From assembly GCA_026239495.1 (NCBI GenBank), contig CP110830.1, positions 1,674,001 to 1,738,000 on the forward strand: a stretch of 64,000 nt of DNA. The letters are read 5' to 3'. Of the stretch, positions 44,191 through 48,403 are shown piece after piece. Every line of letters begins with the position of its first letter. The first letter of the stretch is position 1. Under the pieces are notes generated by a model, which was not told the origin of the DNA, did not search any database, and saw only the letters and a list, made by a program, of their open reading frames with translations. This DNA is from Spiroplasma phoeniceum (GTDB taxonomy: Bacteria; Bacillota_I; Bacilli_A; Mycoplasmatales; Mycoplasmataceae). Both the position numbers and the translations under genes were made by a program.

Positions 44191-44514
44191 ACAATGTTTC
44201 TTTTAACTTATAATATGAAATAAAAAACCTTTCTAGGTTATTATTAAATATATAAAGTTAGGAGAAACATTTTTTATATGGCAAAGGGCAAAACCAAGGG
44301 GTCAAAAGACAATGATATTGAATTTAAAACTAAAATTATTAACGAATATTACGAATATAATAAATCAATATCTTTAATATCTAAAGAATATGAAATAAGT
44401 ACTGCAACTATTTCTAGGTTAATTAATGTTTTCAATAAAGATAAAAAATTTGATAAACTAACATATATTAAAAAAATGCCAATTTTTAACAATCCGCATG
44501 ATGAAACTATATAT
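44191..44514 (+). mobile_element. IS3-family element, orfA fragment (same type as at 11440)
   Basis: Same left end and leader as the element at 11440-12264 (CAATGTTTCTTTTAAC, hairpin AACCTTTCTAGGTT) and orfA MAKGKTKGSKDNDIEFKTKI, truncated after PIFNNPHDETIY by an IS5 copy at 44515. Differs from the other copy by several substitutions. Confidence 0.78.
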
Positions 44515-45590
44515 TAGACTTCTTGCGTAACCTATTAAAAAATTGCAAATATTTGTAAAAAGACACTAATAGAAAAATATAATTTTAATTAATTATGTTT
44601 TTTATTTAAAAATTTAATATTTTGCCACAACAAAAAATGAATTTATTATTTAAATTCTTTAATTTTAAAGAAATATTCTATGCTAACTACAAATTATAAA
44701 TTGAAGCAATTAAATTAAATCTTAAACTAAGTCGTTTTCTTCGATTACGATATTTTTCTGTAATAATTTTAAATTTTTTAAGAATAGCAAAAATATTTTC
44801 AATAATAATTCTTATTTTTGAAACTATTCTATTACGTTGTTTTTGTACTTTATTTAAAGGGTTTTTCTTTGTTTTTTTTTGTAGGTATTAGAACATTATT
44901 GTGAATTTTTTGAATTCCTTGACAACCACTATCAACTATTAATTTGGTATTTTTTAAAATTGAGATTTTTGATTCTTTAAATAAAGCATAATCATGTTTT
45001 TCCCAAGCGAAAAACTTGTTGCAATAATTTTTTTGTTTCTTGTTCGATAATTACTTGTGTTTTAATAGTGTGTTTTTTCTTTTTACCAGAATAAGATTGT
45101 TTTTGTCTTTTTTTGGGCGTTGGATTGGGGTTTTTGTAACATCAATAATAATAGTTTTATCATTAAAACAATCATTTATTAGCGATTTTTTACCAACTAG
45201 TTGTTGAAAATCAGAGTGTTTAATTAAAATATCTTCAATTCACTTGATATTGCGATAACAACTAGATTCACTAATATCAAAACTTTTAGCAAGATGAAAA
45301 TAAGTCCGATATTCTCGTAAATACGATAAAGTCATCAGTAGCCGGTTTTCTAGTAACAATTTATTAGCTTTGCCACCTTTTTTAAATTTTTCTATTTCAG
45401 CTACTTGTAAAATATTTAACATTTTATTAAAAGTAGCTTTTTTGCTCCGGTTAATCGCAATAATTCTTTATCATTAATAAAATTAAATTTATCAAATTTC
45501 ATAATTTTAATCTCCTATAATTTATATTTTAATTTAAAAATATTTTATAGGAATTTTAAAATAATTAGATTATGTTATGCAAGAAGCCGA
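44515..45590 (-). mobile_element. IS5-family element copy F (copy-A type), degenerate
   Basis: 1076 bp, from TAGACTTCTTGCGTAACC to TGTTATGCAAGAAGCCGA. Transposase on the minus strand starts at 45502 (MKFDKFNFINDKELLRLTG), frameshifted at AGCAAAAAAGCTAC; the ORF2 half is also broken. Right end carries a one-base change (GCCGA for GTCTA). Not functional. Confidence 0.85.
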
Positions 45591-46093: not shown

Positions 46094-46441
46094 TTAAAAA
46101 TTATCAATTCGAAAAGATAAAAAATATCGTTTAGTTTTTAAATTTAGTTGATTAAATACTGATCCTTTAATTTTTATCTCATCACCTTTTCTTAATTTCA
46201 AAAACTCAGTTAAAATAGATGGACTATATATTGATAATGTTGAGTAATTTAATCCGTCTCATTTACATTTAACCGAACACGTATCAAATTCAACCCCACC
46301 AGCAACAAGTGCCTTAATTTTAGTTTTAATCGGATTTTCATGTAATCTAACAGTTAGTTATAATTTATTAACTCTTTTATTTTTTATTTTAGGTTTATTA
46401 GTTATTGATTTTTTAGGTAAATTACTTTTTGTTTGTGCCAT
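46094..46441 (-). pseudogene. Small nucleic-acid-binding-like phage protein with an in-frame stop
   Basis: 116 codons from ATG 46441 (MAQTKSNLPKKSITNKPKIK), which overlaps the end of the RuvC-like gene. One TAA at about codon 28, otherwise open: LTVRLHENPIKTKIKALVAG, KCKWDGLNYSTLSIY, FLKLRKGDEIKIKGSVFNQL, KRYFLSFRIDNF. Beta-rich with a basic tail, which suggests an OB-type fold; no family is recognised. One nonsense mutation would be the only defect. Confidence 0.5.
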
Positions 46442-47153
46442 TTTTATCAACTCCTTTTGCTAAAAAATACTGTAAATGTTTTCAAGCATCGTGTTCGTGC
46501 TTTGACATTTTAATATTTCCTTTATAAATATATTTTTTCTTAACAACTGGCGATTGTAAAACATATTTTAAATTAAATAGATATTTACATAAAAACCCTA
46601 AACCACCCATTAATTTAGGAGTAGATAGCGGGTTTGTTATTTTTAATCTCTCATGAAGTTGATAATCTTCAATTATTACAAGAACTTTATTTAAATAAGA
46701 AAAAGTTTTATTTTTAAATTCATTTAATATTAAATAGATATTATTTATTGCTTCATATTCGTTTTTAGAATGAAAGGTAATATTCTTAATTATTTTATTT
46801 TGTAAAACTTTATAAATAATAATACCGGTTTGTCCAATTCCGGCAGGGTCAATTGCAATAATATATTTTAATTTATTTGTTTTATTTTTTTTGTCAATTT
46901 GTAATATTTTCCATCCATCTGATGATAAATCTAAAATATCGTTAATTTTGTAATGTTGCATATATGAATTAATAACACCTCATTTATCTTCAAATAAATT
47001 TAAATACATTTTTGTTCATTCTAAACATTGTAAATCATAATGATTTTTATGGCGCGAAATAGGACAATCAACAGGCTTACAATTAACTAAATCAAATGAT
47101 GTTGTTATTTCATTTCAAGTTTTATTGATATATTTACTTTTATATTCTTGCAT
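46422..47153 (-). CDS. RuvC-like Holliday junction resolvase (phage type)
   Basis: 243 residues from ATG 47153 (MQEYKSKYINKTWNEITTSF), with two TGA-Trp codons near the start and one at the end. RNase-H-like core: first acid in IIAIDPAGIGQTGI, a second in VLVIIEDYQ, and the terminal KMSKHEHDAWKHLQYF with the DA(x)-type acids. This spacing fits the RuvC superfamily of small phage resolvases. A N-terminal ~75 residues (DCPISRHKNHYDLQC) are of unknown role. Would resolve branched DNA during phage replication or packaging. Intact, unlike its two downstream neighbours. Confidence 0.6.
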
Positions 47154-47160
47154 AATATTT

Positions 47161-47658
47161 TATTCCTTTCTTTTTATTTTTTTAAATAAACAGAAAACCC
47201 CCTTTTTGGTTAATATTTTGATATTTAGTAAGAATATTTGTATTTTAATTTAATTAGCTTAATTCGCCACCCACCTCACTTTAGGGGTGAGTGGTGGAGA
47301 TACTAAAATTCTATATTTAAACAGAGTTTATCCCCCAACGGAAGTAAAATAAATTTACCCAGTTATTAATTACGCTTCATCCATCCCTAGAAAACTTTAT
47401 TAAAGAAAATAACCTTTTGGAGCTCCAACCCTCTTGTTTTTTTATTGTCCGATATTGTTTTTTCGTTTTAACAGCACTCTTTTTATGAAAACAAGCCAAA
47501 AAACAGATGCTCTGACATTTCGCAAGTGATTAATCTTGCCGAGAATTAAAGAAATAAATAGGAGAGCAAACCCAATCGCTTTCGCAATTTCTTTAAGGAC
47601 TTCCCCGTGCCATAGATGAGTTACCCATCTTAAAGCATCAAAATATTAAGTTTTAGAT
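47161..47658. other. GC-enriched stretch with dense secondary structure, no gene
   Basis: About 500 bases with no ORF above 60 codons, visibly richer in G/C than the surroundings. Imperfect or perfect hairpins: CCACCCACCTCAC with GTGAGTGGTGG (47269-47298), TTGGAGCTCCAA (47417), GCAAG/CTTGC (47522-47539), TTAAAGAAAT with ATTTCTTTAA enclosing GC-TTTC-GC (47546-47598), and AGATG-CATCT (47614-47630). This density suggests a structured RNA or a replication origin of the phage whose genes lie to the left. Neither RNase P nor tmRNA motifs were found. Confidence 0.55.
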
Positions 47659-47796
47659 TGCATTATTCATCGGATAGTATCTTTATTTAAAAAAAATTTA
47701 TAAAAATATCGTTTATTTTATGTAGGGAAAACAGAATAATATCTGTTTTTATGATAAAAATTCTAAATTTAAAGATACTATCCGATGAATAATGCA
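47659..47796. repeat. 138-bp element with 27-bp perfect inverted repeats
   Basis: TGCATTATTCATCGGATAGT (then ATCTTTA) at 47659-47685 and its exact complement at 47770-47796. The interior contains a second inverted repeat (AAAACAG/CTGTTTT) and AT-rich sequence. It matches none of the IS ends in the window. No target duplication is evident. Confidence 0.8.
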
Positions 47797-47985
47797 AATA
47801 AATTTATGTTTTTTTAATATAAAAATAAAAAAAACAATCTCACAATAATTGTTTTTTACCGGTTCATCGCACAGGATGCCTATATCTTTTTTTATTTCCC
47901 AATTTTATTGGGTCTTTTCCCAATTTTTAATATTAATGCAATGTTTGATGCACCAGAATTGCAAAGCATTAGTAAGAAAACATAA
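47797..47985. other. Short sequence between inverted repeat and IS palindrome
   Basis: About 190 bases with no supported gene. A plus-strand frame reads FFTGSSHRMPISFFISQF without a convincing start and overlaps nothing recognisable. Several T runs and CCCAATTTTATTGGG-type short inverted repeats are present. Confidence 0.4.
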
Positions 47986-48282
47986 TAGACTTCTTGCGAT
48001 ACCTGGTTTTATTATTAAAATATTATTACAAAATATAATTTAATATCCTCATAAATTATATTTTGTAATAATATTTTAATAATAAAACCAGGTATCGCAA
48101 GAAGTCTAGTTATCATAAAAGATTTATTTAAAATTAACGAATTTGAATAATAAAATAATTTTTCGTTGTGGCAAAATATTAAATTTTTAAATAAAAGACA
48201 TAATTAATTAAAATTATAATTTTATATTAACCCCTTTTTACAAATATTTGAAATTATTTTAATGGGTTATGCAAGAAGTCTA
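47986..48282 (+). mobile_element. IS5-derived element: perfect 57-bp-arm palindrome plus IS right end
   Basis: 47986-48042 is the left end of a B/C/D-type IS; 48052-48108 is its exact inverted copy, separated by 9 bases (ATATCCTCA). Both arms share the same deviation (ACAAAA for ATAAAA) from the intact copies. Then 48109-48282 is the right end of the IS from GTTATCATAAAAG to GCAAGAAGTCTA. The whole 297-bp unit has IS termini at both ends and no coding sequence. Confidence 0.88.
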
Positions 48283-48403
48283 TTATTATTGGGGAACATT
48301 AGTAATATGAGGTATTAATGAATTATTATTATGGTATAAAGCAACGCCACCTGCTGTTGAAGTAAAAATAAAAACCACATTGATTAATAATTTTAATCAA
48401 TAG
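48283..48403 (+). pseudogene. Small membrane protein gene, 3' part
   Basis: Continues the gene begun at 44076: YYWGTLVIWGINELLLWYKA, then TPPAVEVKIKTTLI and the stop TAG at 48401-48403. The frame joins the other half if the mobile DNA between them is removed. It overlaps the 3' end of the rhodanese-like gene on the other strand by 11 bases. Confidence 0.75.

Follow-up and report, generated by a model that had tools for sequence, protein, structure and literature searches.

A conserved and previously undescribed structured element in the early region of a Spiroplasma prophage family

Only a few large structured elements of phages are known, most of them without an assigned function. The put RNA of HK022 is about 70 nt long with two hairpins; it heads an early operon and lies downstream of a regulated promoter. 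ROOL is an RNA of phages and prophages, 500-650 nt in length, with a closed multi-branch architecture. GOLLD has a conserved 3' region joined to a variable 5' region (PMC12286853). The genomes of Spiroplasma are already known to hold multi-copy phage DNA, that of the plectrovirus SpV1/SVTS2 (PMC8140453).

The window studied here is a 64-kb stretch of DNA from Spiroplasma phoeniceum, whose genome is 2.18 Mb, of Spiroplasma type, and uses genetic code 4. A sequence-only reading had singled out positions 47161-47658 as a GC-enriched, hairpin-dense non-coding region upstream of a resolvase gene on the minus strand. There is indeed an element there, although its true limits are slightly shifted, to 47208-47652. 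It is real, conserved and previously undescribed; literature searches found no description of it. The GC enrichment is borne out: the region has 31.5% GC and its 381-nt core (47260-47640) has 36.0%, compared with 26.0% in the window as a whole and 22.1% in its non-coding DNA, which puts the core at the 98.6th percentile among windows of equal size. The placement stood as well, since the element is upstream of the RuvC-like gene on the same strand, between a 140-bp palindrome and the early genes of a prophage. The features of this layout are as follows.

47208-47652, minus strand: the window's copy of the type-1 structured element (about 445 nt), its extent taken from the closing stem and a 30-copy alignment.
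47658-47797, strand not given: palindrome made of inverted repeats TTGCATTATTCATCGGATAGTATCTTTA and a variable centre; both exact arm ends occur within 190 nt in 26 of 53 copies.
47662-47691, minus strand: promoter-like TTTAAA-18-AATAAT just upstream of the 5' end of the closing stem P1, weakly evidenced.
46869-47153, minus strand: ORF1 (about 94 aa), the first gene past the element, of no known family; 89 copies in 8 genomes.
46425-46904, minus strand: RuvC-like protein with the motifs IAIDPAGIGQTG, VIIEDYQ and HEHDAWKH and a weak match to phrog_1981 (E 6e-6 to 1e-5).

We believe the element is best explained as a structured RNA encoded in the early operon of a Spiroplasma prophage family, a leader in the type found in the window (type 1) and an intercistronic RNA in a second type (type 2), which acts in cis or is processed. 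We put the probability of this reading at about 0.5. One counterpart is then put, likewise a structured RNA that follows a regulated promoter and opens an early operon. The element is much longer (about 445 nt versus about 70 nt), and the likeness to an antitermination leader is one of layout: it is upstream of an operon, on the same strand, with no terminator before the first gene.

Like GOLLD as described (PMC12286853), the element is large, multi-helix and prophage-borne, with a conserved 3' region and a variable 5' region. However, it is about half as long, matches no Rfam family, belongs to phages of other hosts and has recombination and early genes, not tRNA islands, for neighbours; ARAGORN at standard bacterial settings finds no tRNA in the 64-kb window. 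The sequence-only reading had proposed a search of Rfam, and that search matched no known family. Rfam 15 gives no gathering-level match in the region, the window's sole match being an SRP RNA elsewhere, and cmscan with both types returns only chance-level matches (E 0.2-10). GOLLD is absent from the cmscan matches at E<10 for either type. ROOL resembles the element as a phage RNA of comparable closed form, but its model (RF03087) likewise gives no cmscan match at E<10; it is silent throughout the window's genome, as it is in the control genomes. We also considered a phi29-type pRNA and dropped it, as the terminase of a relative is of the PBSX type and the element is much larger.

The intergenic regions of SpV1/SVTS2 share with the element only that they are multi-copy phage DNA in Spiroplasma genomes. 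The prophage here differs in having capsid- and portal-like genes, and a PBSX-type terminase is encoded on a related plasmid. The genes downstream in the S. citri relatives, judged by reading and by weak PHROG matches, are RuvC-, OB-fold/SSB-, scaffold-, capsid- and portal-like. The carriers thus appear to be a family of Spiroplasma prophages of tailed-phage type together with S. citri plasmids. Searches of the phage collection by blastn and tblastn gave no match to the prophage sequences; the presence of SpV1/SVTS2 records in that collection is unconfirmed. The element marks an undescribed and very successful family of Spiroplasma phages whose genes are annotated as hypothetical. One S. citri plasmid, pSciBLH13-6, has a phage structural module (L022:9151-16751; scaffold-, capsid- and portal-like) in which every annotation is hypothetical, and its capsid-like protein is unmatched in the same collection.

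Two kinds of search found the homologs. By DNA similarity there are about 33 type-1 copies in the S. phoeniceum genome of the window and further copies in eight more genomes of the genus, one of them represented only by a chance-like fragment. An RNA model, R1, built on the 5' domains of 26 type-1 copies, finds 92 copies in eight genomes, each a species of the genus, and nothing in the family's 52 remaining genomes. Both methods detect the window's copy, and no relatives were found outside the genus Spiroplasma. The named hosts of type 1 include S. phoeniceum P40, S. poulsonii MSRO and the S. citri plasmids. Many type-1 copies are truncated and adjoin IS5-like insertions.

The window's copy contains open frames of 60-71 aa, which raises the idea that the element encodes a small protein or a recoded frame. 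We find this hardly credible. The frames are broken in the other type-1 copies, which average 6-9 stops per frame over the six frames in code 4 and carry frame-shifting indels, so we judge the element to be non-coding.

Type 2 was recognized on S. citri plasmid pSciBLH13-2, where ORF1 is preceded by a different GC-rich non-coding stretch of 520 nt with folding z-scores of -3.7 on the operon strand and -2.2 on the opposite strand. It has a large copy set of its own, with identity down to about 66%, and by eye its likeness to type 1 is confined to the 3' part. A model built solely from type-2 3' domains, R2, matches dozens of type-1 copies at the expected place and in the right orientation (E 1e-4 to about 1e-10). 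These matches mean that the 3' domain is common to both types and the 5' domains differ. In the window the common domain is this:

47224-47321, minus strand: 3' domain common to type 2, including the GC-rich hairpin at 47266-47298; R2 match G000:C1:1721224-1721321, E=1.9e-4.

Together the two models count roughly 170 copies in eight Spiroplasma species. The element is compact and occurs in well-known insect symbionts and plant-associated species (S. poulsonii, S. citri, S. phoeniceum), and its natural variants and decayed copies make structure-function tests easy. The type-2 query also matches weakly in other genera, at loci (L184-L187) that fall in or beside ordinary genes, and we judged these matches to be chance.

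The element joins exchangeable 5' domains to a 3' domain that stays conserved. GOLLD is described with a like arrangement (PMC12286853), which bears on a different reading of the element: a large stable RNA, GOLLD- or ROOL-like, that acts in trans and is processed out or transcribed independently, so that the neighbouring genes merely share its promoter. The size, the closed terminal stem, the many conserved single-stranded blocks and the prophage location all suit such an RNA. No terminator follows the 3' end, though, type 2 sits tightly between two genes, and the Rfam and ROOL searches described above speak against it too, with the reservation that the ROOL model was silent in the control as well. 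We think this reading unlikely, though it deserves a hearing. Rather unlikely, in our opinion, is that the element represents a new class of large phage RNA in the Mollicutes, with swapped 5' domains on one 3' domain, acting in trans or forming an RNA particle, and unrelated in sequence to GOLLD or ROOL.

The structure was worked out by comparison across copies, since the window's copy, folded alone, has an unremarkable z of -1.1 on the minus strand and a better -2.9 on the plus strand; seven other copies average -2.9 and -3.5 on the minus and plus strands. A first alifold run on an alignment of 87 sequences was spoiled by gaps and misalignment, and the structure reported here is based on a set of 30 distinct sequences. 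Its principal parts in the window are listed below.

47632-47649, minus strand: 5' arm of the closing stem P1 (UUAAUAUUUUGAUG...), columns 4-21 of alignment A1, which pair with columns 484-501.
47210-47227, minus strand: 3' arm of P1 (...AUAUCAAAAUAUUAA), helix 1 of the comparative structure.
47614-47630, minus strand: helix 2, a 5-bp stem with a 7-base loop; 98.3% of cells paired in the 30 sequences.
47546-47596, minus strand: helix 4, a 9-bp stem around a GAAA-loop hairpin (47575-47587); 98.9% of cells paired, with one both-side change.
47522-47539, minus strand: helix 5, a GCAAG/CUUGC hairpin; compensatory changes in 3 of 5 pairs (13 cells).

P1 has 17 pairs between arms about 440 nt apart, and 14 of the 17 never vary in the 30 sequences. 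Because it is almost invariant, its support comes from conservation of both arms and not from covariation. Helix 2 reads AGATG-GGTAACT-CATCT on the minus strand, and helix 4 is a 9-bp AU stem (UUAAAGAAA/UUUCUUUAA) around a UUGC-GAAA-GCGA hairpin. Both had been seen in the single sequence, helix 2 as a 5-bp stem with a 7-base loop and helix 4 as a possible multi-branch unit at 47546-47598, and both prove to be conserved helices. Helix 5 changes from GCAAG/CUUGC to GCGGG/CCCGC in other copies.

Over the whole type-1 consensus of 76 pairs, 98.4% of cells are paired. Changes on both sides of a pair that preserve pairing occur in 28 cells against 6.0 +/- 2.0 in shuffled alignments, a count reached in 0 of 500 shuffles, and the covariation score is 0.088 against 0.062 +/- 0.002. 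When the pairing partners are slid by one to three columns, every one of these measures collapses. Type 2 has double changes in several helices, independently of type 1. The covariance check proposed from the single sequence thus came out clearly in favour of a conserved fold, with compensatory changes far above the shuffled controls. We relied on these counts with shuffle and slide controls because R-scape-style tree tests are confounded here: the copies are mosaic and recombining, so the tests have no power, are dominated by linked blocks and supported no helix. A GGGGG/CCCCC pseudoknot in type 1 was dropped, as its loop and G-run show no covariation by eye.

Nine loci with an intact ORF1 allow the element to be compared with the gene beside it. 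The mean p-distance is 0.101 for the element, 0.405 for four-fold sites of ORF1 and 0.069 for its codon positions 1+2, so the element evolves almost as slowly as the sites that determine amino acids. Type 1 is under strong purifying selection, and its folding is kept by natural selection. This contradicts the view that the element is decayed repeat or IS-derived non-coding DNA whose hairpins are incidental. That view could draw on the high copy number and on the many truncated copies beside IS5-like insertions, but it must then explain a divergence far below that of four-fold sites, compensatory changes across eight species, a constant position relative to ORF1 and the lack of any match to IS ends. 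The IS5-like homology blocks adjoin the element and do not include it. We regard this view as very improbable. The single-sequence reading had named a lack of homologs and covariation, or a match to Rfam or to an IS, as grounds for giving up a functional element; homologs and covariation are present, and neither match was found.

The selected structure may be formed by RNA or by DNA. The type-1 consensus energy is -126.8 on the operon strand versus -110.4 on the opposite strand, and changes on internal branches favour G-U over A-C by 16 to 7. In type 2 the corresponding changes are even (17 G-U and 19 A-C), and the cells of common pairs lean to A-C (56 G-U versus 91 A-C). The z-scores of single sequences give no preference to the operon strand. 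The internal-branch counts come from per-sequence folds; an alignment fold without G-U had given almost no pairs. The G·U strand test is therefore weakly positive in type 1 and neutral in type 2, so the structure may instead act at the DNA level: as a replication origin, a packaging site or a protein-binding region whose hairpins form in single-stranded or cruciform DNA. We consider this as unlikely as the trans-acting RNA, though it too deserves a hearing. Structure about equally good on both strands, the strand-neutral G-U use of type 2, a hairpin inverted in some copies, and the adjoining recombination-type genes and long palindrome all fit it. Yet in both types the element is within a co-directional transcription unit, type 1 favours G-U when read on the operon strand, and near-invariant single-stranded blocks and a terminal stem spanning 440 nt would be unusual for a DNA origin. 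Pfam, PHROGs and NCBIfam recognise no initiator gene among the neighbours, and no iterons or other signs of an origin were noticed, though there was no systematic search for iterons. In short, the position inside a transcription unit argues for RNA, and the strand symmetry leaves room for a role as DNA. The single-sequence reading had offered a functional RNA or a phage origin. A structured, conserved prophage element is what stands of this; a new non-coding RNA is the favoured form of it, by inference, and the origin idea is unsupported.

As for the inverted hairpin, it is the GC-rich one at 47266-47298: its inner part is inverted in several copies from two genomes (L019, L027) and the stem is kept, so the sequence of the loop is not essential in type 1.

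The leader or intercistronic RNA that we prefer also draws on the surroundings of the element. Among 298 genomes of the order, 8 encode the ORF1 protein, and its copies were located by a protein search independent of the search for the element. For 83 of the 89 copies an element (type 1 in 58, type 2 in 25) precedes the gene on its own strand at a distance of at most 3 kb, and in most cases of no more than 200 nt. It is missing beside the other 6 and in pSciBLH13-6, most of which are prophage remnants, so the element is not strictly required beside ORF1. The same palindrome is upstream of both types. Type 1 follows it directly, and in type 2 the order is palindrome, a 78-aa gene, the element, and then ORF1 or other early genes. 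The element-side arm was found in most of the 53 copies, and the palindrome is possibly a shared operator or divergent promoter. The -10-like AATAAT is kept in most of these copies as well, but promoter-like sites number 8 against a chance expectation of 5.7, so TTTAAA-18-AATAAT is suggestive only. A consensus scan of the minus strand of 47100-48000 finds no terminator. Read from sequence, the S. citri plasmids have a terminator-like hairpin and T-run just before the palindrome, and between the element and the first gene they have a ribosome-binding site and no terminator.

From this layout we infer that the element is transcribed, on the operon strand, and acts in cis. Transcription would start at the palindrome (47658-47797), pass through the element and continue, without meeting a terminator, into ORF1, the recombination genes (RuvC-like and SSB-like) and the structural genes. 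The type-1 element would fold as a 5' leader, and the type-2 element as an intercistronic RNA after the 78-aa gene. The RNA may then regulate this operon in cis, and the likeliest way would be to help polymerase or ribosomes proceed; alternatively, it could be cut out as a stable RNA.

The genes and repeats around the element deserve some remarks of their own. The RuvC-type motifs and the weak PHROG match agree with the earlier name of resolvase for the second gene, a name with no further basis. An AlphaFold model of its product has a pLDDT of 35 and was not used. ORF1 and the RuvC-like gene form a single frame of 243 aa in the window (46422-47153) and at one other locus (L013); they are overlapping separate frames in most copies. 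Related prophages encode, in this early region, a second RuvC-like protein of only distant similarity (20-28% identity; L143:10164-10586). The prophage remnant in the window is flanked by the remnant of an IS5-like transposase (HTH_Tnp_4, 44508-45586) and by matching inverted ends (48107-48285), and such flanks recur around many other copies. Finally, a perfect inverted repeat of 57 bp with a 9-nt spacer (TAGACTTCTTGCGATACC...) at 47986-48108 also occurs elsewhere in the genome beside IS5-like ends, and it looks like a fold-back or MITE-like element.
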